A DNA stretch of 23,172 nucleotides, taken from a virus. Numbering within the stretch: the stretch's first letter is position 1; each line of letters opens with the position of its first letter. Where the stretch lies: IMG/VR virus record IMGVR_UViG_3300027968_000051, positions 1 to 23,172 of that record, one strand, 5' to 3'. Shown one piece after another: positions 4,725 through 17,887 of this stretch. A model generated the notes under the pieces. It ran no database searches. It saw only the letters and a program-made list of their open reading frames with translations, and had not been told where the DNA came from. Both the position numbers and the translations under genes were made by a program.

Positions 4725-4995
4725 GTCGGAACCAGAGGTCGAAGACATCCTGATGGAGCCGTGCTTCATTCTCCTGGCGACCGATGCGTACGCAGCAACA
4801 GCCGTGCTTCGGTGGGCTGATCGGATGGAGAAGGCCGAGCACAGGCCGGACGTTGCGGACGCAGCTCGAGCCTACGCACTGAAGATGCAACAGTTCGGTC
4901 GCGAGCACGGAACGAAGGTCTTGACGGAGATTCCGGAGATGGAGGTGCCGCACGAGCCTCCGGCCAAGCCCGTTCGGCGAGCCGTCCATGGGTGA
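4690..4995 (+). CDS. Hypothetical acidic phage protein
   Basis: ATG 4690, preceded by GAGGAGGAC, gives 101 aa and overlaps the resolvase by 35 bp and the QueE gene by 8 bp. The N-terminus is acidic and Pro/Ser-rich (about residues 1-20). A predicted helical core follows ('FILLATDAYAATAVLRWADR', 'DVADAARAYALKMQQFGREH'), then a Pro-rich basic tail. I do not recognise a domain. The open frame extends further upstream, but the strong ribosome binding site supports 4690. Confidence 0.6.
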   Translation: MPESTEEPSQPESEPEVEDILMEPCFILLATDAYAATAVLRWADRMEKAEHRPDVADAARAYALKMQQFGREHGTKVLTEIPEMEVPHEPPAKPVRRAVHG

Positions 4996-5710
4996 AATCG
5001 TCATCAACGAGATCTACGGACCGGTCCTGCAGGGAGAAGGAGCCACACGCGGTCGGCCAGCAGCGTTCGTGCGTCTCGGTCGGTGCAACCTTGCGTGCAA
5101 GTGGTGTGACACGCCGTACACGTGGGACTGGAAAGGAGCCAACGGGCAGGCTTACACACCGGCCAAAGAGCTCAAGCGCATGAGCGTCGAGGACGTAGTC
5201 GAGATCGTCCAAGGTATTCGAGCAGATCGCGTCATCATCAGTGGTGGCGAACCGATGCTGCAGCAGAAGGCCTTAGCCGAGTTTATCCTTTGTTTGCCGA
5301 CACACTCGTTCGAGATCGAGACGGCCGGAACGAGAATGCCGACACCGCTCTTTCTCGGAACACGAGCCACGGTGATAGGTCGGAAGATCTCCTACAACGT
5401 CTCACCGAAACTCGAGAATAGCGGCAACAAGAAGCTGACACGCTACAAGCCGGCCGTTCTCAAAGCACTTCGTGACCGAGGTGCAAGGTTCAAGTTCGTC
5501 GTCAACGACAAGGTGGACCTTGAAGAGGTCGACGAGATCGTCAAGGAGATCGCTATCGAACGGAGTCGTATCTGGATCATGCCTGAAGGTGTACACGTCG
5601 AGGAAGTCATCGCAAGAGCCCGACTGATCGAACCAGCCGTTCTCGACCGCGGATGGAATCTGACGCTTCGAGATCACGTATTGCTGCACGGAGACAGGAG
5701 GGGAGTGTGA
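4988..5710 (+). CDS. queE: 7-carboxy-7-deazaguanine synthase (radical SAM, QueE)
   Basis: QueE converts 6-carboxy-5,6,7,8-tetrahydropterin to 7-carboxy-7-deazaguanine, the third step towards preQ0. The 240-aa sequence opens with the family hallmark 'INEIYGPVLQGEG', followed by the radical SAM cluster motif C33-x3-C37-x2-C40 (CNLACKWC) and the 'DTPYTWDW' segment. The SAM-binding 'IISGGEP' is at about residues 83-89, with 'FEIETAGT' further on. ATG 4988 overlaps the previous gene by 8 bp, and the stop overlaps the FolE start (GTGTGA). It is the first biosynthetic gene of the cluster and probably shares its transcript. Confidence 0.93.
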   Translation: MGEIVINEIYGPVLQGEGATRGRPAAFVRLGRCNLACKWCDTPYTWDWKGANGQAYTPAKELKRMSVEDVVEIVQGIRADRVIISGGEPMLQQKALAEFILCLPTHSFEIETAGTRMPTPLFLGTRATVIGRKISYNVSPKLENSGNKKLTRYKPAVLKALRDRGARFKFVVNDKVDLEEVDEIVKEIAIERSRIWIMPEGVHVEEVIARARLIEPAVLDRGWNLTLRDHVLLHGDRRGV

Positions 5711-6282
5711 ATACAGCCGTCGAGAACGCGGTTTACGAAATGCTCGACGCAGCCGGAGTTGACTGGCAAGACGACAACTTTGCGGACACGCCAAAGAGGT
5801 TCGCTACGTGGGTCAAGCCACTTGCAGTACCGGTGGATCAGGTAACTGTCAAGGACATCCTGTCGGCCAAGTTCTCGGAAGAGCACAAGGAGATGGTAGC
5901 CGTCACGAACATTCGTGTACACGCTGCCTGTGCACATCACCTCCTACCGTTTACCGGAGTCGCGCATGTCGGGTACCTGCCTGGCAAGTACGTCGTTGGT
6001 ATCAGTAAGCTAGCGAGACTAGCCCAGTACATCGCGAACCGCTTCACGCTGCAAGAGCGCGTTACGACGCAGATCGCAGATGCGCTGATGACGCATTTGG
6101 AGGCGGACGGAGCCATCGTCGTCGTCAAAGCCGTCCACAACTGCATGGCCGTTCGCGGAGTGAGAGAGCCCTACGCAGAGACGGTAACGAGTGCAACGCG
6201 TGGACTCTTTCGAGAGAACGCCAACGGTTGCAAGACAGAGTTTCTGTCGCTCATCCCATCGACGATTGGAGGGTCGTTGTGA
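5707..6282 (+). CDS. folE: GTP cyclohydrolase I
   Basis: FolE makes 7,8-dihydroneopterin triphosphate from GTP, the entry step for 7-deazaguanine synthesis. I chose GTG 5707 because ACAGGAGGGG lies just before it and it overlaps the QueE stop by 4 bp; this gives 191 aa. Family features are clear: 'DTPKRFA', zinc ligands C75 and H78 in 'CAHHLLPFTGVAHVGYLP', 'VVGISKLARL', and the later 'NCMAVRGV' carrying the third zinc ligand. A start at 5653 is possible but lies deep inside queE. A phage copy beside queE, queC, queD and dpdA points to DNA modification, not folate supply. Confidence 0.93.
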   Translation: MNTAVENAVYEMLDAAGVDWQDDNFADTPKRFATWVKPLAVPVDQVTVKDILSAKFSEEHKEMVAVTNIRVHAACAHHLLPFTGVAHVGYLPGKYVVGISKLARLAQYIANRFTLQERVTTQIADALMTHLEADGAIVVVKAVHNCMAVRGVREPYAETVTSATRGLFRENANGCKTEFLSLIPSTIGGSL

Positions 6283-6824
6283 CTGACGAGGCGGTCGATC
6301 CGCAAGGAATGAGGCAGTACGCACCGTTCCCACACGAGCTTGCGGAGTTGGTCGAGAGACTCCGCTACCGTCCGGGCTGGACGTTCAAGCTGGCCGATAT
6401 CGAACGAGATCCCGCGGACACGCACAGTGGCAGTGCGGGCGGATTGACCTTCATCGGTCTCACTGGCGACTGGGTACGGACACCTCAAGGCGGTCGACGC
6501 TACGTTGGAGCTGAGGACGCCTACCATCCAGGTACGCCTCGCCCAGTCTACTTCTACTTCCCGGTACCTGCTGCAACTTACGACAGACAGAGCTGGCGCC
6601 GCTGGCTGTTCGACTGTCTGCTACTCGTCGAGAAGCACGAGGCCATGGAGCACTTCGCCTTCGTTACGCACGAAGACTACGAGAACGGTTTGACTGACGA
6701 GGAGTTGCCCGTCGAGCGACCGTACTCACCGACACACGGTCCGGGACGCACACCGTACATCATCTTCGAGGTGACGACGGAGGAGAACAAGCGCACCAGT
6801 TTCCGCGGGGAGGTCAACGAATGA
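6279..6824 (+). CDS. Hypothetical conserved phage protein
   Basis: GTG 6279 overlaps the FolE stop (GTGA) and has TTGGAGGG upstream; an ATG at 6309 is the alternative. The product is about 181 aa. It has a recognisable alpha/beta make-up: 'LAELVERLRYRPGWTFKLAD', 'LTFIGLTGDWVRTPQGGRRY', 'PVYFYFPVPA', then a helix 'WRRWLFDCLLLVEKHEAMEH' ending in acidic and aromatic residues. I recall similar uncharacterised proteins in actinophages, but I know of no function. Being embedded between folE and the endonuclease/dpdA pair, it could belong to the modification pathway or simply be a passenger. Confidence 0.7.
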   Translation: MTDEAVDPQGMRQYAPFPHELAELVERLRYRPGWTFKLADIERDPADTHSGSAGGLTFIGLTGDWVRTPQGGRRYVGAEDAYHPGTPRPVYFYFPVPAATYDRQSWRRWLFDCLLLVEKHEAMEHFAFVTHEDYENGLTDEELPVERPYSPTHGPGRTPYIIFEVTTEENKRTSFRGEVNE

Positions 6825-7294
6825 AGCTCGCACAACGACAATGGTTATCGGAGACTCGACGAGGTCCCGGTAATCCGATGTGGGGTCGGAAGCGCATCTT
6901 CTCTCCGGAGCATCGAGAGAAGTTGCGACAGGCTCGACTTGCACGACCGGACAGATCGGCACTTGCTCGTGCGGCTGTAGCCGCTCAACAGAGTCGCATG
7001 ACTCAAGCCGAGAAGGATGAGTGCGGGCGGCGAATGCTCCGGGCACAAGTGGCGGTCGAGACCGCTCCCGAGCGAGTTGTGCGCTTTCTGCTAGAGGCAT
7101 CTGGACGGAGATTCGAGAGGCAAAAGCCGATCGGACCGTGGCGAGTCGACTTCTACGTCTCAAGCTGCAATCTCGTCATTGAGGTCGATGGTTGGTGGCA
7201 TCAGAACACAACCGAGGTTCAAGCTCGAGACAAACGCAAAAACGCTGACCTATTGGCCCGAGGATTCAACGTCCTCCGAGTGGAGGTGGACTGA
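6821..7294 (+). CDS. NUMOD3 plus Vsr/DUF559-type endonuclease (homing-like)
   Basis: ATG 6821 overlaps the previous stop by 4 bp (ATGA). The 157-aa protein has an N-terminal NUMOD3-like DNA-binding repeat (about residues 15-42, 'GNPMWGRKRIFSPEHREKLR'). A C-terminal domain of the Vsr/DUF559 group in the PD-(D/E)XK superfamily follows: 'RVDFYVSSCNLVIEVDGWWH', then 'KRKNADLLARGFNVLRVEVD'. The acidic residues in 'VDF' and 'IEVDG' would be catalytic. NUMOD motifs mark free-standing homing endonucleases, so this is probably a mobile gene that landed in the modification operon. Its stop lies directly against the DpdA-like coding start, which may explain why that gene lacks a normal start codon. Confidence 0.72.
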   Translation: MKLAQRQWLSETRRGPGNPMWGRKRIFSPEHREKLRQARLARPDRSALARAAVAAQQSRMTQAEKDECGRRMLRAQVAVETAPERVVRFLLEASGRRFERQKPIGPWRVDFYVSSCNLVIEVDGWWHQNTTEVQARDKRKNADLLARGFNVLRVEVD

Positions 7295-7295
7295 C

Positions 7296-8120
7296 ATCAA
7301 GCTTGCCAACATCGTTCCGATTCCGCTACTCGATCGACTCCTGACGGAGGAAGACGACTACCACCTCGTCCTAGGCGATCTCATCGTCGAGAGCAAGGTG
7401 TATGCGGACTTCTACGCCGAGCGCGTCAAGCGTGGTGACTACGTCATTCTCGACACGATGGAAGCTGAGCGTCCAGGTGTCGGTACGCCGATGTCGACAA
7501 TGCAGGAGGCGATTCGGACTCTGCAACCGAGCGAGGTCGTACTTCCCGACGTCAGTGACGATGGAGAGGCTACCATCCGCCGTGCACAGGAGGGTATCGA
7601 AGCCTTTCGCGAGATCGGGTATACCGGTCCGTTCATGGCCGTTCCACACGGAGCGTCCTTCCGCGAGTACATCACCTGTGCCAAGGTTCTGTCGCAGCTT
7701 CCGGGTGTTGAGTGCCTCGGAGTCTACGAGCAGATCCAGCGCAACTTCAGCATCTCTCGTCGCGCGATGGTGTGGAGACTGTACGGTCTCTTGACCGATA
7801 CGGGAAAGCACTACACGCAGATTCACCTTCTCGGTGGAGACGAAGACTGTGAGACGCTCGTCAAGACGACACTGAGAAACATCGTCCGAGGTCAAGACTC
7901 GGCCAAGCTCACCGTGTGGGGTCTGTCCGGACAGATCGTCACTCGAACGCACATTCCGCCCTACCCTGGACGCCGATTCTTCGGTGGAGAGAAGTACTTC
8001 TACGTGCGGGAGGGGAACCTCGCGGCTGGATCGATGGATGGAGTCGAAGTAGTTCCATCGACCTACGTGGAAATAGCAAAGCAGAACATCGCCTACTGGA
8101 GGAGGTACGTAGCAGCATGA
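7296..8120 (+). CDS. dpdA: DpdA/TGT-like DNA 7-deazaguanine transglycosylase (start codon unclear)
   Basis: This protein resembles phage DpdA, relatives of tRNA-guanine transglycosylase that swap guanine in DNA for a 7-deazaguanine base. Residues below count from 7296: N-terminal 'KLANIVPIP', D53 in 'YVILDTMEAE' (position of the substrate-binding Asp), D85 in 'VVLPDVSDD', H118 in 'MAVPHGASF', and 'IHLLGGDED' at about 176-184. Homology starts at the codon ATC 7296, six bases after GGAGGTGG (7282-7289), where an ATG would be expected. The nearest normal in-frame starts are TTG 7179 and ATG 7188, over 100 bp inside the endonuclease gene. Either ATC initiates or the protein has an extended N-terminus. 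QueC, QueD, QueE and FolE nearby support the role. Confidence 0.75.
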   Translation: MKLANIVPIPLLDRLLTEEDDYHLVLGDLIVESKVYADFYAERVKRGDYVILDTMEAERPGVGTPMSTMQEAIRTLQPSEVVLPDVSDDGEATIRRAQEGIEAFREIGYTGPFMAVPHGASFREYITCAKVLSQLPGVECLGVYEQIQRNFSISRRAMVWRLYGLLTDTGKHYTQIHLLGGDEDCETLVKTTLRNIVRGQDSAKLTVWGLSGQIVTRTHIPPYPGRRFFGGEKYFYVREGNLAAGSMDGVEVVPSTYVEIAKQNIAYWRRYVAA

Positions 8121-8344
8121 GCACCGAACCGCTTGATATCCGACCTGGACGACGGACCAAGACGACGGAACAGACGGAGCCGAAGCAGATCCTGACGATC
8201 ACGGTCTTCGTGGGGATGTACGACTGGGTCAAGAAGCACGTCAAGGCGAGCCCGGAGTACCGGTCCGTCGCTGACTACATCCGACAGCTCATTCAGAAGG
8301 ACCGTGAGCGAGTCGAGCGTGAGGAGGCCAAGAAGAGTGCTTGA
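8117..8344 (+). CDS. Ribbon-helix-helix DNA-binding protein
   Basis: ATG 8117 overlaps the DpdA-like stop by 4 bp and follows GGAGGTACG, giving 75 aa. A disordered N-terminus is followed by a strand 'ILTITVFVGMYDWVKKHV' and two helices 'YRSVADYIRQLIQKDRERVE', the order of a MetJ/Arc/CopG ribbon-helix-helix repressor. The C-terminus is a charged helix. Such proteins act as dimers on palindromic operators. Its place inside the modification operon suggests autoregulation or control of late expression, but I could not identify an operator. Other small helical functions remain possible. Confidence 0.55.
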   Translation: MSTEPLDIRPGRRTKTTEQTEPKQILTITVFVGMYDWVKKHVKASPEYRSVADYIRQLIQKDRERVEREEAKKSA

Positions 8345-9491
8345 GCGCACGCCTCTGACGTTTGACATCCCACGCATTGTCGACCGTGGGACGGACGCTG
8401 GTCAGCTGTTTGCTGGAAACGGAGTGCAGTACTACGACCTGTGCTGTGGAACGGGTTGCACTGGACTCGATGGCATTCTCCTCGAGGAGATCTTCGCACA
8501 GGTTGCAGAGATGCCGCTCAACACGTACGCCTACGAGACGGAGTTTCGAGACGAGGCCGAGGACGAGTTGCGACTCATGTATCCCGGTTACGCTTTCGCC
8601 TTCTTCTCGGGAGGTGCCGAGTGTGTCGAGGCAGCTCTGCGCGTAGCAGACGTCCTTGTCAGCCCTCTTCGACCACCAGTCACGTTGTCGTTCACGGGAG
8701 CCTTCCACGGAAAGACGTTCCGAGCGGGCCGTCTTGGAGACATGCGCCATCACGGCAAACACTTCCTTGTCGCCAACTACGAACGTCCGACCCTGCCTTC
8801 GCCGTACCACGAGCCGGCACCAGGAGGAGAGACGGGAGCTCTCATCGCACCGACGACCATCATCTTCGAGCCGATGCAAACGCGAAACGGCGTTCGTCCG
8901 ATGAGTCAGACGCAGATGGACGAGCTCTTCGCATACGCCATGCAGTGCGGCTCAATCGTCATTGCGGACGAGATCAGCACGACGATTCGGAGTGGCTATC
9001 CGTTGCTCTCCTGTGCAAATGTGACGGGATACAAGCCCGACATCATCTGCGTTGGCAAGAACATCGGTCAAGGCATTCCGGTTGCCGTTCTCGGCGTTCG
9101 AGCCGACCACGTCGACGCCGCAGAGAGAGTCTCGCTGACGAGTGGCTTCGGAGGCAACGCTCTTGCGTGTGTAGCCGTCGAGCGGACGCTGCACCACATT
9201 CGAGTCAACAACATCCTCGAGAAGATCCAGAAGCGGGGTGTGGAGTTTCTCAACGCTTTGACGGCGGAAGTCTCCGACCTGGTCCACCAAGTCGTCGGAG
9301 TCGGCTTCTGGTTCGGTCTCGAGCTCAAGGTCGAGGCTATTCCGGTTGCTCGAGCGCTTGCTCATCGTCACTGGATCGTCAGTCCAGCAGGACCGATGTC
9401 GATTCGGTTGTCGCCACCGTTCGAGCTGCAGGATGCGATCTGGTTCGAGTTCTTGAGCGACCTACGGGAGGTTCTCAGTGCCGAGAACTAG
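8337..9491 (+). CDS. PLP-dependent class III aminotransferase
   Basis: This is a complete 384-aa fold-type I, class III enzyme (ornithine/GABA/lysine aminotransferase group). Visible features are 'FAFFSGGAECVEAALRVA' (phosphate loop), 'FTGAFHGKTFRAGR' (ring-stacking segment), D211 in 'IVIADEIST' (pyridine nitrogen) and K241 in 'PDIICVGKNIGQGIP' (Schiff-base lysine). 'TSGFGGNALACVAVERTL' follows. I chose GTG 8337, nine bases after GAGGAGG, rather than GTG 8304 or 8319, which overlap the previous gene more. These enzymes move amino groups between amino acids or omega-amines and keto acids. A phage copy inside a preQ0 cluster is unusual; the likely substrate is an amine or amino acid used for, or attached to, the 7-deazaguanine side chain (inference). 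Confidence 0.88.
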   Translation: MLERTPLTFDIPRIVDRGTDAGQLFAGNGVQYYDLCCGTGCTGLDGILLEEIFAQVAEMPLNTYAYETEFRDEAEDELRLMYPGYAFAFFSGGAECVEAALRVADVLVSPLRPPVTLSFTGAFHGKTFRAGRLGDMRHHGKHFLVANYERPTLPSPYHEPAPGGETGALIAPTTIIFEPMQTRNGVRPMSQTQMDELFAYAMQCGSIVIADEISTTIRSGYPLLSCANVTGYKPDIICVGKNIGQGIPVAVLGVRADHVDAAERVSLTSGFGGNALACVAVERTLHHIRVNNILEKIQKRGVEFLNALTAEVSDLVHQVVGVGFWFGLELKVEAIPVARALAHRHWIVSPAGPMSIRLSPPFELQDAIWFEFLSDLREVLSAEN

Positions 9492-10224
9492 ACCGTCAGG
9501 TCCGCGCTTTCCAGCGGTAATCATCAACGACGACGGTGTCGAAGCTCTACCGTTTCTCCTGAAGGCTCTCTATCACCTTCGAGGCTTGGTGACACCGATC
9601 GCCTTCTTCTTGCCGGATCGAGATCGGTCAGGATGCGGAGGATACATTCGAACTCGTGGAGAGCCGATTCCGTTTCATGAGGTGGACACGCCATTGACGA
9701 ACGTTCCGGTCTACGTCGTAGATGGCTATCCGGCTGAGATCGCCTACCTCGTCAAGGTGCGGTACAAGCCCACTCGAGCGCGCGTCGTCTCCATCAACCG
9801 CGGCCACAACTTCGGAACGTTCATCTTCAACAGCGGTTGCGTCATGGGAGCGGTTCAAGCCAACTGGCTCGGCTTTGCCTCACTGGCACTCAACTGGCCG
9901 GAGAAGGAGATGCCCGGACCGGCAGACGGAGCCGTACTCGCATCGCTCGTGACAAGACTGTGGACGAGTCCGGAAGAGGACATGCGCAGCTCTCTGTGGT
10001 GCGTCAACTTCCCGACCAAGTATTCCACTCCGCAGCGATTGGTACAAGTGGGTCTCAGCCGGGTTCTGCCGGTGACGTATACTAAAGTACAGATGGGTGA
10101 GTTTCGCCTTATGGATAGGTCGCTCGAGATCGGTCCCGGAGATGCTCACGACGTTCTCGAGCGGGGTGTCGCGACCGCGGTCCCGCTCAACTCCGCAACC
10201 TTCACGATGCAAGGGAGCTACTGA
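9478..10224 (+). CDS. surE-like: SurE-like nucleotidase/phosphatase
   Basis: This 248-aa protein matches the SurE 5'/3'-nucleotidase fold. It has N17-D18-D19-G20-V21 (metal-binding NDDG), S51 in 'DRDRSGCGG', and N107 in 'VVSINRGHNFG', followed by 'NSGCVMGAVQANWLGFASLA', the counterpart of the SurE 'YSGTV-AA' helix. All usual metal ligands appear present, so it should be an active phosphomonoesterase on nucleotides or similar substrates. GTG 9478 follows ACGGGAGG and overlaps the aminotransferase by 14 bp. It could remove phosphate from a pathway intermediate or alter the dGMP pool; neither is shown. The C-terminal 70 residues diverge from standard SurE. Confidence 0.82.
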   Translation: MPRTRPSGPRFPAVIINDDGVEALPFLLKALYHLRGLVTPIAFFLPDRDRSGCGGYIRTRGEPIPFHEVDTPLTNVPVYVVDGYPAEIAYLVKVRYKPTRARVVSINRGHNFGTFIFNSGCVMGAVQANWLGFASLALNWPEKEMPGPADGAVLASLVTRLWTSPEEDMRSSLWCVNFPTKYSTPQRLVQVGLSRVLPVTYTKVQMGEFRLMDRSLEIGPGDAHDVLERGVATAVPLNSATFTMQGSY

Positions 10225-10898
10225 TGTACACGTACTGGAAGGGCGAGGACCCGATGATGTTGGCGAACCTCGAGTTCGACGGAGCCAACAGCGTCATTCT
10301 CAACACGTACACGCCGAGAACTCGCGTCGCGCTATTGACGGTTTGCTCGTGGGCTAAGCCGTACAGTCAGTCGCACATCCACAGAGCCATTCGGCAGGAC
10401 CTCATGACGACTGGTCCGAAGGGCGGTCTTCTGAACCAGATCGACTACATCCACCTGTCGAGCGCAGGAGTCATTCCACACGCATGCGAGAAGTGGTACC
10501 CGTTCACGGCCTACGACTGGAACAATGCACGCGTCGATACAGAGGCTCTGACGGAGGCTCTGGAGGTGTACATTGCCGAGCGGTTGATGCGATTCGTCAA
10601 GCGGTTCGAGTCCCACTATAGCCACTGGGTGACCTACTTCCGTGGAAACTCCACGACGTCGAAAGCCATTCTCCGCGTTCAGGAGCAGCTTCCACTGACG
10701 CGCTCACAGCCGTACATCGGTTCACCGGCAGAGGTCATCTGGCGAAACGTCTTCGTCTCATCACGCATCTCAGCCGATATGACCGTCCGTGAGAGTCTCC
10801 TATCCGGCTACTGCGACCCAGACGTTGCGCTAACCCTACCCGTCAATCTGGATCAGCTCCAGGCAACCCTGAAGGAGGTACTTGATGTACAAGAGTAG
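10224..10898 (+). CDS. ArcS-like (archaeosine synthase core, DUF5591-type) protein
   Basis: This 224-aa protein contains 'LLTVCSWAKPYSQSHIHRAI', with C41, K45-P46-Y47, S50 and H53. It matches the archaeosine synthase signature C-x3-KPY-x2-S-x2-H exactly. In Archaea, ArcS is a larger multidomain protein that adds lysine to the nitrile of preQ0 in tRNA. Only the catalytic core is present here, without PUA or TGT-like domains. A 'YIHLSSAGVIPHACEKWYPF' segment follows, typical of the core. ATG 10224 shares one base with the SurE stop (TGATG), and the end overlaps queC. Its place between dpdA and queC suggests it acts on preQ0, free or in DNA, to make an amidine-type or amino-acid adduct (inference). 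Confidence 0.72.
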   Translation: MYTYWKGEDPMMLANLEFDGANSVILNTYTPRTRVALLTVCSWAKPYSQSHIHRAIRQDLMTTGPKGGLLNQIDYIHLSSAGVIPHACEKWYPFTAYDWNNARVDTEALTEALEVYIAERLMRFVKRFESHYSHWVTYFRGNSTTSKAILRVQEQLPLTRSQPYIGSPAEVIWRNVFVSSRISADMTVRESLLSGYCDPDVALTLPVNLDQLQATLKEVLDVQE

Positions 10899-11577
10899 CG
10901 TCGTCATTTGCAGTGGCGGGATGGACTCCGTCACGCTGGCGTATGAAGAGGCTCGACGAGGGAAAATCCAGCTTCTCTCGTTTGACTACGGTCAGAGACA
11001 CAAGAAGGAGCTCGAGTGTGCGCGGATGTGCGCTGAGGACCTCAACGTTCCGTGGGAAGTTGTTGACTTGACGTCGCTTGGTCGTTTGCTTCACGGCTCG
11101 TCGCTATCCGATCGTCGAGTAGACGTACCGGACGGACACTACTCCGCACAATCGATGAAGCTGACGATCGTACCGAACCGCAACTCGATTATGCTCAACT
11201 GTGCGGTTGGGGTCGCTATCGGAACCGGGGCGGAAGTCGTCTACACGGCAGTGCACAGTGGAGATAGAGCCATTTATCCCGACTGTCGAGAAGAGTTTGT
11301 TCGAGCGCTCAATCAACTCATTCGCGTCGCGACTGAAACGAGCGTTCGCGTGGAGGCTCCCTTCGTAAACGTGACGAAGGCGGATATCGCCTCGATCGGC
11401 AACAGATTGGGAGTCGACTGGACGAGAACGTGGTCCTGCTACAAAGGCGGAGAGATCCACTGCGGACGTTGCGGCACGTGTACCGAGAGACAAGAGGCGT
11501 TCCATCTGGCCGGGGTTGAGGATCCCACTCCGTACGAGGATGCAGAGTTCTGGAAGACCGCAGAGGCGAACGCATGA
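10885..11577 (+). CDS. queC: 7-cyano-7-deazaguanine synthase (QueC)
   Basis: QueC uses ATP and ammonia to turn 7-carboxy-7-deazaguanine into preQ0. The 230-aa sequence has the PP-loop 'SGGMDS' at residues 10-15, 'LSFDYGQRHKKELECA', 'VPNRNSIMLNCA' and 'HSGDRAIYPDCREEF'. The zinc site is C185-x7-C193-x2-C196-x2-C199, as in bacterial QueC. No glutamine amidotransferase domain is fused, so it is not the Gat-QueC form that makes archaeosine precursors. ATG 10885 is preceded by GAAGGAGG; TTG 10882 is an alternative. It overlaps the ArcS-like gene by 14 bp, showing translational coupling. Confidence 0.95.
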   Translation: MYKSSVVICSGGMDSVTLAYEEARRGKIQLLSFDYGQRHKKELECARMCAEDLNVPWEVVDLTSLGRLLHGSSLSDRRVDVPDGHYSAQSMKLTIVPNRNSIMLNCAVGVAIGTGAEVVYTAVHSGDRAIYPDCREEFVRALNQLIRVATETSVRVEAPFVNVTKADIASIGNRLGVDWTRTWSCYKGGEIHCGRCGTCTERQEAFHLAGVEDPTPYEDAEFWKTAEANA

Positions 11578-11903
11578 AGTTGCGATCGGGATTCTGCCAG
11601 AATCCAGAGTGTCGCTGGCTCGGTGAGTGTCCGGTCTTGCTACCGGAACACATGATTCCGAAATGGCACTTCAAAGCCGGACTCGCTAAGGGTGATCCGA
11701 CAGATCCGTCTAACATTGAGTGGTGGTGTCCGACTTGTGCGCGGATCAAGACTCGCGCTGAGCAGCGTACGGACGAGTATCGAGAGTACGTTCGGACCTG
11801 GGGTACCGGCAGGAGACACCACGCGGACTCGATCGAGAAGGTAAGAGCATCGGCTCTTGCAAGGGAGGCTCGGTGGAGAGTATCTGGAGTTCGACATGAC
11901 TGA
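11574..11903 (+). CDS. HNH endonuclease 1
   Basis: ATG 11574 overlaps the queC stop (ATGA) and gives 109 aa. The HNH fold is visible as 'CQNPEC', then 'EHMIPKWHFKAGLAKGDP', 'DPSNIEWWCPTCARIKT', with paired Cys residues for structural zinc and the central His/Asn. A basic C-terminal stretch ('GRRHHADSIEKVRASAL') resembles a shortened NUMOD-type DNA-binding tail. It is clearly related to the endonuclease at 12564-12959: both read '(H)xxPxWxFKxGLxxGDPTDPxN'. It is probably a free-standing homing endonuclease in the modification operon. Confidence 0.78.
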   Translation: MKLRSGFCQNPECRWLGECPVLLPEHMIPKWHFKAGLAKGDPTDPSNIEWWCPTCARIKTRAEQRTDEYREYVRTWGTGRRHHADSIEKVRASALAREARWRVSGVRHD

Positions 11904-12267
11904 GAGGTTGAGCGAGCAGCTGCCGGTCCAGCCGTCTGAGACACACAAGTGGGCGGCTTGGTGCTCACAGCACACAAGTCACCCGATCGACTGCTTCTGG
12001 GAGCATCACCCGGAGGTGTGCGAGGAACACCACAAACTACAATGTGAGGAGTGTCATGGAATCCGAATCCGAGTCCCAACCGCAGTCGAGCGACACGAAC
12101 GAATTCAAGCGCAACGCGAGACCGCTAGTGTCGATCAGCAAGGAAGTGGAGTTCGATGCGGGACATCGAGTTCCGGCACACAAGAGCAAGTGTCGGAACC
12201 CACACGGCCATCGCTACCGGGTTCGGGTCCTGTGCGAGGGAGTGATCCAACCGACAGATGCGGGTAG
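11896..12267 (+). CDS. Possible small Cys/His-rich protein overlapping queD
   Basis: ATG 11896 is six bases after GGAG (11886-11889), overlaps HNH 1 by 8 bp, and opens a frame that fills the otherwise empty gap before queD. The first 55 residues have a zinc-site look: 'WAAWCSQHTSH', 'DCFWEHHPEVCEEHH', 'LQCEECHG'. The frame continues 212 bp into queD and there looks like a shadow of it (Ser/Gly/Arg-rich). Either a real gene runs on inside queD or the expressed product is different from the open frame. I do not recognise it. Confidence 0.4.
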   Translation: MTERLSEQLPVQPSETHKWAAWCSQHTSHPIDCFWEHHPEVCEEHHKLQCEECHGIRIRVPTAVERHERIQAQRETASVDQQGSGVRCGTSSSGTQEQVSEPTRPSLPGSGPVRGSDPTDRCG

Positions 12268-12571
12268 CACAGGTGGCATGCTCGTCGACTTCGGAGACCT
12301 GAAGTACTTCCTCCAGACGCTGGCTGGACTACTCGACCACGCCATGATCATCTGGAAGGGTGATGACGAGCTGCTCGAAGCCTTTAGAGGTCACGACTGG
12401 AACACGGCCGTCTTCGAATACGTGCCAACGGCCGAGAACATCGCTCGCTGGTTCTACGACGAGTTGTCAAGAAGCGTCAACGCTCGCTACGTCAACGACT
12501 TGCGCGTCTCCGGTGTCAGTGTGTGGGAGACGCCGACGAGCTGTGCGCACTATCGAGGCGATCGTGGCTGA
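12056..12571 (+). CDS. queD: 6-carboxy-5,6,7,8-tetrahydropterin synthase (QueD)
   Basis: QueD turns dihydroneopterin triphosphate (the FolE product) into 6-carboxytetrahydropterin, the QueE substrate. In the 171-aa protein the zinc histidines are H37 in 'FDAGHRV' and H50/H52 in 'CRNPHGHRYRV', with catalytic C46. 'GMLVDFGDLK', 'LLDHAMII' and 'PTAENIARWFYDEL' follow in the family order. ATG 12056 has GAGGA five bases upstream; GTG 12044 is an alternative. The first 24 residues are Ser/Glu-rich and outside the family core. With FolE, QueE and QueC this completes the preQ0 pathway in about 7.6 kb. Confidence 0.93.
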   Translation: MESESESQPQSSDTNEFKRNARPLVSISKEVEFDAGHRVPAHKSKCRNPHGHRYRVRVLCEGVIQPTDAGSTGGMLVDFGDLKYFLQTLAGLLDHAMIIWKGDDELLEAFRGHDWNTAVFEYVPTAENIARWFYDELSRSVNARYVNDLRVSGVSVWETPTSCAHYRGDRG

Positions 12572-16658: not shown

Positions 16659-17126
16659 GTGGGAGCAACAGACCGCAAGAAGCTCATCAAGACGGGGGAG
16701 AAACTTCTCTCGGGACCGACGCCGACGGATCGAGCGGGCATGCTCAGCCTATGCGAGGATCTTCTCAACACGGCACAGGAGATCGTTGACGACTTCGAAG
16801 AGCAACGAGACAACTTCGGTACAGCGTCCGGTCTTCTCGAGTCGTGGGAGGAGAACTACGGTTGTCAGCAAGACGGTTGGGACTCCGCCGTTGTGAGTCT
16901 CGACGACATCAAGTCTCGTCTTGAGGAGGCGGAAGAGACGCAAATGGTGCGGTGCACACTGTGTGGTGGGGAGGGCACGCTCGAGACAACACTCGAGACT
17001 GATGAAGAACCGACGGAGTGCACACAGTGCGGAGGCACGGGTGAGATCGAAGAGGAGGTCGAGTTCGACCCGCACGTAGCCTTCGAGGAGATCGAGTCCG
17101 CCTGGCAAGAGGGAGTGACACAATAG
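16659..17126 (+). CDS. Acidic protein with DnaJ-like double zinc motif
   Basis: GTG 16659 follows AGAGAGGAAG and gives 155 aa. The first half is helical and acidic ('LLNTAQEIVDDFEEQRDNF'). The second half has two CxxCGGxG knuckles: C99-x2-C102-GGEG and C121-x2-C124-GGTG, 19 residues apart, as in the zinc-binding repeats of DnaJ and related RNA- or protein-binding modules. A strongly acidic C-terminus (EIEEEVEFD) follows. The lack of a J-domain means it is not DnaJ itself. The stop shares one base with the next start (TAGTG). Role unknown. Confidence 0.68.
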   Translation: MGATDRKKLIKTGEKLLSGPTPTDRAGMLSLCEDLLNTAQEIVDDFEEQRDNFGTASGLLESWEENYGCQQDGWDSAVVSLDDIKSRLEEAEETQMVRCTLCGGEGTLETTLETDEEPTECTQCGGTGEIEEEVEFDPHVAFEEIESAWQEGVTQ

Positions 17127-17887
17127 TGGACGAGGACTATCTCAAGTCGCTCATCGACCGCGTACGTCCGCACACGATGGTGTGGCCGGCCTCACTGCAC
17201 TCGCTAGCCCATCTCGTCGAGTACGTCCTCGATCACGACATACCCGGAGACTTCGTTGAGTGCGGAACGTGGAAGGGCGGTTGCTCGTTTCTCATTGCAG
17301 ACATCCTCAAGCACCGGGGAGTGGAACCGAAGGAGCGATTGGTCTGGATGTTCGACTCGTTCGAGGGTATGCCGGCACCAACGCCAGTAGACGGCGAGCG
17401 AGCTCAGCGATTCGTGCGTGAGACGGACAGTCCGCGTTACTACGACAACTACAAGGCCGAGATCGGAGAGGTAGTCGCCGCAGCTCGAGCACTCGGTCTG
17501 CGACTGTGGCTCCTTCCGGTCAAGGGCTGGTTCAACGAGACGCTTCCGAACTGGAGTGAACGCACGGCAAATCGACCGATCGCTCTTCTACGTGTCGACT
17601 GCGACTGGTACGAGAGTGTCTCCTGTGCACTGTCGAACTTGCGCGGCTTCGTTGCTCCCGGTGGCTTCATCGTCCTTGACGACTACTACTGGTTCGAGGG
17701 AGCTCGAAAGGCCTTTGAGGACTTCCGTCCGTGGACGGGTTGGTCTGGTGTGCACAGTGTCTACTCGGCGTCAGCTAGTAGTCTCACGGCAGAGAGCGCG
17801 TGGATTCAGCGAGTCAAGGAGACACCGAGGGACTTCGACCCGCGCACGTCGATTTACGTAGAGCCCCAGGAAAAAGTCGAGTTATAA
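17126..17887 (+). CDS. TylF/macrocin O-methyltransferase-like SAM methyltransferase
   Basis: This 253-aa protein follows the TylF (macrocin O-methyltransferase) layout of class I SAM enzymes: 'PGDFVECGTWKGGCSFLIAD' at 40-59 (SAM loop), 'VWMFDSFEGMPAPTP', 'VKGWFNETLP', D158-C-D160 in 'LLRVDCDWYES', and 'GGFIVLDDYYWFEGARKAFE' with D185/D186 as likely metal ligands. Characterised members methylate sugar hydroxyls. In a phage the target could be a glycan, a nucleotide sugar or a modified base; the sequence does not decide. GTG 17126 overlaps the preceding stop by one base. It ends the rightward block before a probable new promoter. Confidence 0.8.
   Translation: MDEDYLKSLIDRVRPHTMVWPASLHSLAHLVEYVLDHDIPGDFVECGTWKGGCSFLIADILKHRGVEPKERLVWMFDSFEGMPAPTPVDGERAQRFVRETDSPRYYDNYKAEIGEVVAAARALGLRLWLLPVKGWFNETLPNWSERTANRPIALLRVDCDWYESVSCALSNLRGFVAPGGFIVLDDYYWFEGARKAFEDFRPWTGWSGVHSVYSASASSLTAESAWIQRVKETPRDFDPRTSIYVEPQEKVEL

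Follow-up and report, generated by a model that had tools for sequence, protein, structure and literature searches.

A recurring viral gene module that may attach an amine to preQ0 in DNA

A virus record of 23,172 bases (IMGVR_UViG_3300027968_000051, positions 1 to 23,172; this whole stretch is called the window below) carries a gene cluster that joins a complete preQ0 (7-cyano-7-deazaguanine) pathway and a DpdA-like DNA guanine transglycosylase to a tailoring module of a class III aminotransferase, a phosphatase and a stand-alone ArcS core. The preferred reading, to which we assign a probability of roughly 58%, is that the module would yield dPreQ0, the preQ0 deoxynucleoside, decorated with an amine in the viral DNA. 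In a more specific form, for which the odds appear about even, the product would be a DNA base not yet described, an N-substituted 7-formamidino-7-deazaguanine whose amine is made by the phage itself, likely as an amino-polyol from a phosphorylated sugar or triose, and whose module was assembled at least two times, each time with a different aminotransferase and phosphatase. Because the window is a fragment, the absences reported for it hold within that fragment only.

The proposed mechanism begins with chemistry that is established for the gene set, whose members are present here: FolE, QueD, QueE and QueC would make preQ0, and DpdA would then replace guanine with it in phage DNA. Subsequently, by analogy with archaeal ArcS, the ArcS core would react the nitrile of preQ0 in DNA with a primary amine, resulting in a positively charged N-substituted formamidine on dPreQ0. 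The recurrence and the gene fusion described below suggest that the aminotransferase would form this amine by transaminating a phosphorylated ketone or aldehyde, the likely amino donor being glutamate, and that the phosphatase (SurE in the window, a HAD enzyme in the relatives) would remove the phosphate before or after coupling. Without RaSEA, the adduct would not be cut back to archaeosine and would itself be the final base.

Among 50,697 phage records, the ArcS core of the window matched two, the Synechococcus phages Ssp-JY38 (L001) and Yong-L2-223 (L036), both of which carry QueE, QueC, QueD, FolE and DpdA. Slightly downstream in both, past a polymerase gene, a class III aminotransferase gene adjoins a gene for a fusion protein with HAD motifs in its N-terminal and an ArcS core in its C-terminal part. 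In GenBank, this fusion (L001:8497-9486) is an 'acid phosphatase' for Ssp-JY38 and a 'hypothetical protein' for Yong-L2-223, with the ArcS half unannotated, and none of the papers searched mentions either phage. Three more records, the contigs L003, L004 and L005, came from an alignment-based IMG/VR scan and have the order QueE-QueC-aminotransferase-(HAD/ArcS core)-QueD-FolE-DpdA, in which the aminotransferase and fusion genes stand between queC and queD and show overlaps at most of their junctions; later scans of viral contigs found only these three again. The HAD motifs (DxDGT, S/T, Lys and Asp) are conserved in the four aligned fusions.

Since the aminotransferase and ArcS-core proteins of Ssp-JY38 and Yong-L2-223 are identical, these two phages count as one lineage, and the five other phage records with the set of aminotransferase, phosphatase and ArcS core amount to four distinct lineages. 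A class III aminotransferase is present in all module records (6/6) and absent from five comparison records with DpdA or an ArcS core (nt-1, STSV1, phiST, Youna2 and BSTP12). Between the window and its relatives the phosphatase (SurE versus HAD), the aminotransferase lineage and the DpdA subfamily all differ, and the combination therefore recurs with different parts. The fusion of a phosphatase to the ArcS core, furthermore, marks the two as steps in one pathway. Neighbours by chance would not produce such recurrence, which links both the aminotransferase and the phosphatase to the step of the ArcS core. Viral contigs scanned with single sequences of the window (its ArcS core, aminotransferase and SurE) gave no match, and hence no close relative of the exact window cluster.

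The ArcS core of the window (10224..10898, plus strand, 224 aa) belongs to DUF5591 (E 6.1e-11; NCBIfam ArcS E 2.4e-8) and retains every residue that is invariant across phages and archaea; the residues common to phage ArcS cores and archaeal ArcS are C41, KPY, G82, P85, AYDW, R120 and Y132. Its predicted structure is closest to AF0587, and C41 could, in a putative catalytic role, form a thioimidate. The protein consists of the core only and lacks the TGT-like N-terminal part (TGT, tRNA-guanine transglycosylase) of the full archaeal architecture; archaeal ArcS relatives measure about 415-460 aa, with the core toward the C-terminal side, and the NCBIfam ArcS score of the window core is 33 bits against a cut-off of 440. 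The ArcS cores of the phages with HAD-type modules are 31-36% identical to it, and in a tree the archaeal cores group with that of STSV1 (85/96) to the exclusion of the module-type phage cores and one bacterial core. Plasmids gave no good ArcS-core match, and a literature search with the terms tried found no paper on a role of ArcS in phages. Separately, one of 23 archaeal loci, from a Thermofilaceae archaeon (L018:4448-7211), has a class III aminotransferase gene immediately after an ArcS-like gene.

The cluster shares a homologous core, with all invariant residues, with the archaeal ArcS/RaSEA pathway. It differs in that the phage core stands alone or is fused to HAD, in the missing RaSEA, and in a presumed DNA substrate and different amine. 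By its genes, with archaeal architecture and RaSEA both missing, it is not an ArcS/RaSEA archaeosine pathway; the core probably works through ArcS-like chemistry with a different amine. In archaea, ArcS couples lysine to the preQ0 nitrile in tRNA and accepts the preQ0 nucleoside and, better, its 5'-phosphate; the T. kodakarensis enzyme modifies preQ0 nucleosides in this way but not free preQ0, and the lysine adduct is not exchanged back by the transglycosylase, which blocks reverse base exchange (PMC11298593).

The aminotransferase (8304..9491, plus strand; Aminotran_3 E 1.4e-35) is a member of the class III family with its motifs FHGK, ADE, GK and RLSP intact, including Lys252 and Asp222 at the pyridoxal phosphate (PLP) site. 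A conserved late arginine, R368, fits glutamate as amino donor. Both aminotransferase lineages, that of the window and that of the HAD-type phages, have FHGK where acetylornithine, succinylornithine and gamma-aminobutyrate (GABA) aminotransferases have FHGR or YHGR; FHGK is also found in putrescine aminotransferase. This motif speaks weakly against an ornithine-like substrate and so bears on the possibility that lysine or another amino acid is what the ArcS core couples, with the aminotransferase replacing RaSEA on the bound adduct to give 2'-deoxyarchaeosine (dG+) or a trimmed adduct. Such a route would draw on the lysine used by the T. kodakarensis enzyme (PMC11298593), and in complete genomes without RaSEA any release of archaeosine would indeed need another enzyme. 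It leaves the ever-present phosphatase unexplained, however, and FHGK in place of FHGR/YHGR counts weakly against a lysine- or ornithine-like substrate; we regard it as improbable. Because FHGK occurs in both lineages, itself a weak argument, and a phosphatase is always present, the likelier task of the aminotransferase and phosphatase is to produce or unmask the amine. The original prediction had proposed preQ0 carrying an amine, distinct from the known products, and this part gains from the recurring set and from the absence of RaSEA and QueF in two complete relatives; its further suggestion, later processing of a lysine or ornithine adduct, has become less likely.

The window aminotransferase is 23-26% identical to the other phage aminotransferases, falls outside their clade (support 100/99) and is by BLAST nearer to E. 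coli PatA, GabT and ArgD. A shared recent origin of the two types was tested and not found, the window enzyme, a long branch in the tree, lying outside the clade of the others. Independent recruitment of two aminotransferase types is likely on this phylogenetic evidence. Within the 50,697 phage records, only the two Synechococcus phages have an aminotransferase closely related to that of Ssp-JY38, and the remaining 29 matches are at most about 31% identical, many of them named bacterial genes or sequences.

The phosphatase of the window (9478..10224, plus strand) is a SurE-family nucleotidase (SurE E 4.6e-18) with the metal-site motifs NDDG, PDRDRSG and INRG intact and its catalytic motifs aligned to 2wqk; it has no match among the 50,697 phage records. 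In the relatives, the weak best matches of the HAD domain to solved structures include a capsule biosynthesis protein (E 0.002). A phosphatase in the set hints at a phosphorylated amine or a phosphorylated precursor of it. The most precedented candidate is serinol from dihydroxyacetone phosphate, a small amino-polyol, which we put forward as a guess that, taken by itself, has a low probability. In the C. jejuni capsule pathway (Cj1437, Cj1438, Cj1435), dihydroxyacetone phosphate is transaminated to serinol phosphate, which is amide-coupled and then dephosphorylated by a HAD enzyme (PMC11800397), and RtxA makes serinol from dihydroxyacetone phosphate (PMC3222319). The likeness is one of analogy, in that a phosphorylated ketone would be transaminated, the amine coupled and the phosphate removed; unlike in the mechanism proposed for the window, C. 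jejuni couples the amine to a carboxylate with ATP, and the acceptor is a sugar. A gene for an RpiB-like sugar-phosphate isomerase overlaps the HAD/ArcS fusion gene in both Synechococcus phages (L001:9486-9929 and L036:9501-9944) and may feed the aminotransferase or be a separate metabolic gene.

Several points weigh against amine-decorated dPreQ0 as the product. The base chemistry is a prediction from the genes; the sequence of the aminotransferase does not fix its substrate; the RpiB gene beside the Synechococcus phage modules may mean that the amine comes from a pentose phosphate instead; and a phage core without the archaeal N-terminal part could act on DNA or on a free base. In addition, M. 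jannaschii ArcS is reported, in work cited in PMC11298593, to use ammonium, Gln or Asn directly, and the ArcS core therefore need not take a substituted amine. On that precedent, the core might make ordinary dG+ with ammonia, Gln or Asn, the aminotransferase and phosphatase serving nitrogen supply or host metabolism, and Vibrio phage nt-1, which has an ArcS core and no aminotransferase, is reported with a little dG+ (PMC6884629). This account, which we consider unlikely, leaves unexplained both why two differently built assemblies each combine the ArcS core with an aminotransferase and a phosphatase and why a phosphatase is fused to that core.

The absence of the routes to known end products counts in favour of amine-decorated dPreQ0. 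QueE is the only radical SAM protein in the window and the sole one in the two complete Synechococcus phage genomes; neither the window nor these genomes contain RaSEA, and the RaSEA route to archaeosine is, given that QueE stands alone, not encoded in the two complete phages. QueF or QueF-L has no match in the window, and QueF is absent from the complete relatives, where weak sub-cut-off matches fall on FolE at the positions compared. No Gat domain is attached to the window QueC, whose match covers only the QueC part of PHROG 1550 (144-370 of 418). The genes thus considered would explain no known end product. That QueF, Gat-QueC and RaSEA are not visible had been noted from the sequence and is borne out within this fragment, and the search beyond it, run in the two complete relatives, likewise turned up neither RaSEA nor QueF.

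The preQ0 genes themselves all retain their catalytic motifs. On the plus strand, QueE, the radical SAM 7-carboxy-7-deazaguanine synthase (4988..5710; PHROG 2076 E 3.9e-50), has CNLACKWC; FolE, GTP cyclohydrolase I (5653..6282; Pfam E 4.9e-56), has CAHH and HNCM; QueC, the preQ0 synthase without a Gat domain (10882..11577; Pfam E 2.9e-62), keeps SGGMDS and four cysteines; and QueD, 6-carboxytetrahydropterin synthase (12044..12571; PTPS E 3.6e-32), has CRNPHGH. By gene content, the cluster is of the phage 7-deazaguanine DNA-modification kind. Like the systems of phages 9g, CAjan, Rosebush and nt-1 (PMC6884629), it unites the whole preQ0 pathway with a TGT-fold DpdA in a single cluster; unlike them, it also includes an aminotransferase, a phosphatase and an ArcS core, and neither QueF nor Gat-QueC occurs in the window. 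The DNA of phage CAjan contains dPreQ0 (PMC6884629). Where phages have preQ0 genes and DpdA alone, they carry dPreQ0 (PMC6884629), and the final base could accordingly be plain dPreQ0 (or 2'-deoxy-7-amido-7-deazaguanine, dADG), with the ArcS core a relic and the aminotransferase and SurE unrelated auxiliaries. All three proteins, however, retain their catalytic or invariant residues across distantly related phages, and we hold this to be quite improbable.

Two viruses provide comparisons for the stand-alone ArcS core, and both lack a class III aminotransferase. Vibrio phage nt-1 has such a core together with preQ0 genes, and Sulfolobus virus STSV1 has one beside a TGT-like gene: its TGT-like ORF18 overlaps ORF19, the DUF5591 ArcS core (L034:3064-4405; E 1.6e-20). 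In nt-1, ORF392 (L033:10513-11121), directly after QueC, encodes a protein starting MCGLF that has no Pfam match at E 0.01 and resembles class II glutamine amidotransferases, so that Gat-QueC may be split here.

DpdA (conserved domain 7305..8120, plus strand) has no Pfam match above the cut-off. By tblastn it matches proteins of phiST (4e-8) and Youna2 (1e-14), both inside preQ0 clusters, and it is 27-30% identical to the DpdA of the phiST and Youna2/BSTP12 preQ0 clusters; Flavobacterium phages have relatives of the Youna2 protein that bear the annotation DNA guanine transglycosylase. Its AlphaFold model is modest (pLDDT 61.5, with low confidence in the last third) and has the TGT fold, its best PDB matches being tRNA-guanine transglycosylases (E 8.8e-5), and two candidate active-site aspartates, D50 and D198 (numbered from the segment start at 7305), are invariant. 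The open reading frame is open from 7179 and has no ATG, GTG or TTG from 7188 to the start of the conserved domain, which leaves the start codon uncertain; translation may use a non-standard start, coupling or a frameshift. The frame also overlaps the DUF559 gene by more than 100 bases (window 6821-7400).

The window DpdA has no BLAST match at E 1e-3 to the DpdA of the HAD-type module phages. A scan with the window-type DpdA found two further DpdA phages (L038 and L039) with no recognisable aminotransferase or ArcS core in the stretch examined, and the module is therefore not tied to this DpdA subfamily. The Cellulophaga, Weizmannia and Bacillus phages phiST, Youna2 and BSTP12 likewise combine a related DpdA with preQ0 clusters; unlike the window, they have no class III aminotransferase, and no ArcS-core or SurE gene is annotated in the regions read. 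In several phages a window-type DpdA gene lies directly before a family A DNA polymerase gene (L037:4947-7731, L049:7001-9797 and L038:9992-12484).

DpdA occurs in every module-bearing phage cluster seen, which bears on a further possibility, namely that the module makes a diffusible preQ0-based small molecule and no DNA modification. A model for it is a Defluviitaleaceae metagenome-assembled genome (WRGD01000084.1; L030:1048-11811), where a stand-alone ArcS core is found with QueC, QueD, QueE and FolE, and also with a branched-polyamine-synthase-like protein, a carbamoyltransferase, a glycosyltransferase, a methyltransferase, a PIG-L de-N-acetylase and an ABC transporter. By its genes this bacterial cluster resembles one for a preQ0-based natural product, and an amine could be joined to preQ0 there. 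No DpdA was recognised in it, however, in contrast to the phage clusters, and a diffusible product of the phage module seems very improbable.

The complete cluster is a plus-strand gene run from 4988 to 12571 in the order QueE, FolE, PHROG 1540, DUF559/Vsr-like, DpdA, 75 aa protein, aminotransferase, SurE, ArcS core, QueC, HNH and QueD, and is flanked in the window by helicase, nuclease and polymerase genes. Most neighbours overlap, as had been described from the sequence. The original prediction was also right that FolE, QueD, QueE, QueC and a DpdA-like enzyme are present with intact motifs, on which family matches and motif check agree. Of the four genes it placed between dpdA and queC, the aminotransferase, SurE and ArcS core hold up; the fourth, a 75 aa protein (8117..8344, plus strand), is a ribbon-helix-helix protein by appearance only, that call having no hidden Markov model support, and the gene was not seen in related clusters and is probably incidental to the module. 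The PHROG 1540 protein (6228-6824, plus strand) was weighed as a possible partner and set aside: all of its relatives in the phage records are from Mycobacterium phages, and none showed a link to DpdA. The DUF559/Vsr-like endonuclease gene (6821-7294, plus strand) and the HNH genes are judged, from family alone, to be endonuclease insertions. Downstream of the polymerase, a TylF-family O-methyltransferase gene (window 17126-17887; Pfam E 1.8e-38) could, purely speculatively, modify a hydroxylated adduct.

The groups at position 7 of phage 7-deazaguanines are reportedly small (cyano, amido, carboxy, aminomethyl and derivatives, and formamidine). The prediction of amine-decorated dPreQ0 is directly testable, since the records of two phages with the module give Synechococcus hosts, strain PCC 7002 in the case of Yong-L2-223. 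If it is true, a bulky, charged and hydroxylated side chain on guanine would represent a new level of DNA hypermodification, and ArcS-type amidine chemistry would have a role in DNA, with a different amine. Such a module would, furthermore, provide enzymes with which amines of choice could be placed on DNA.

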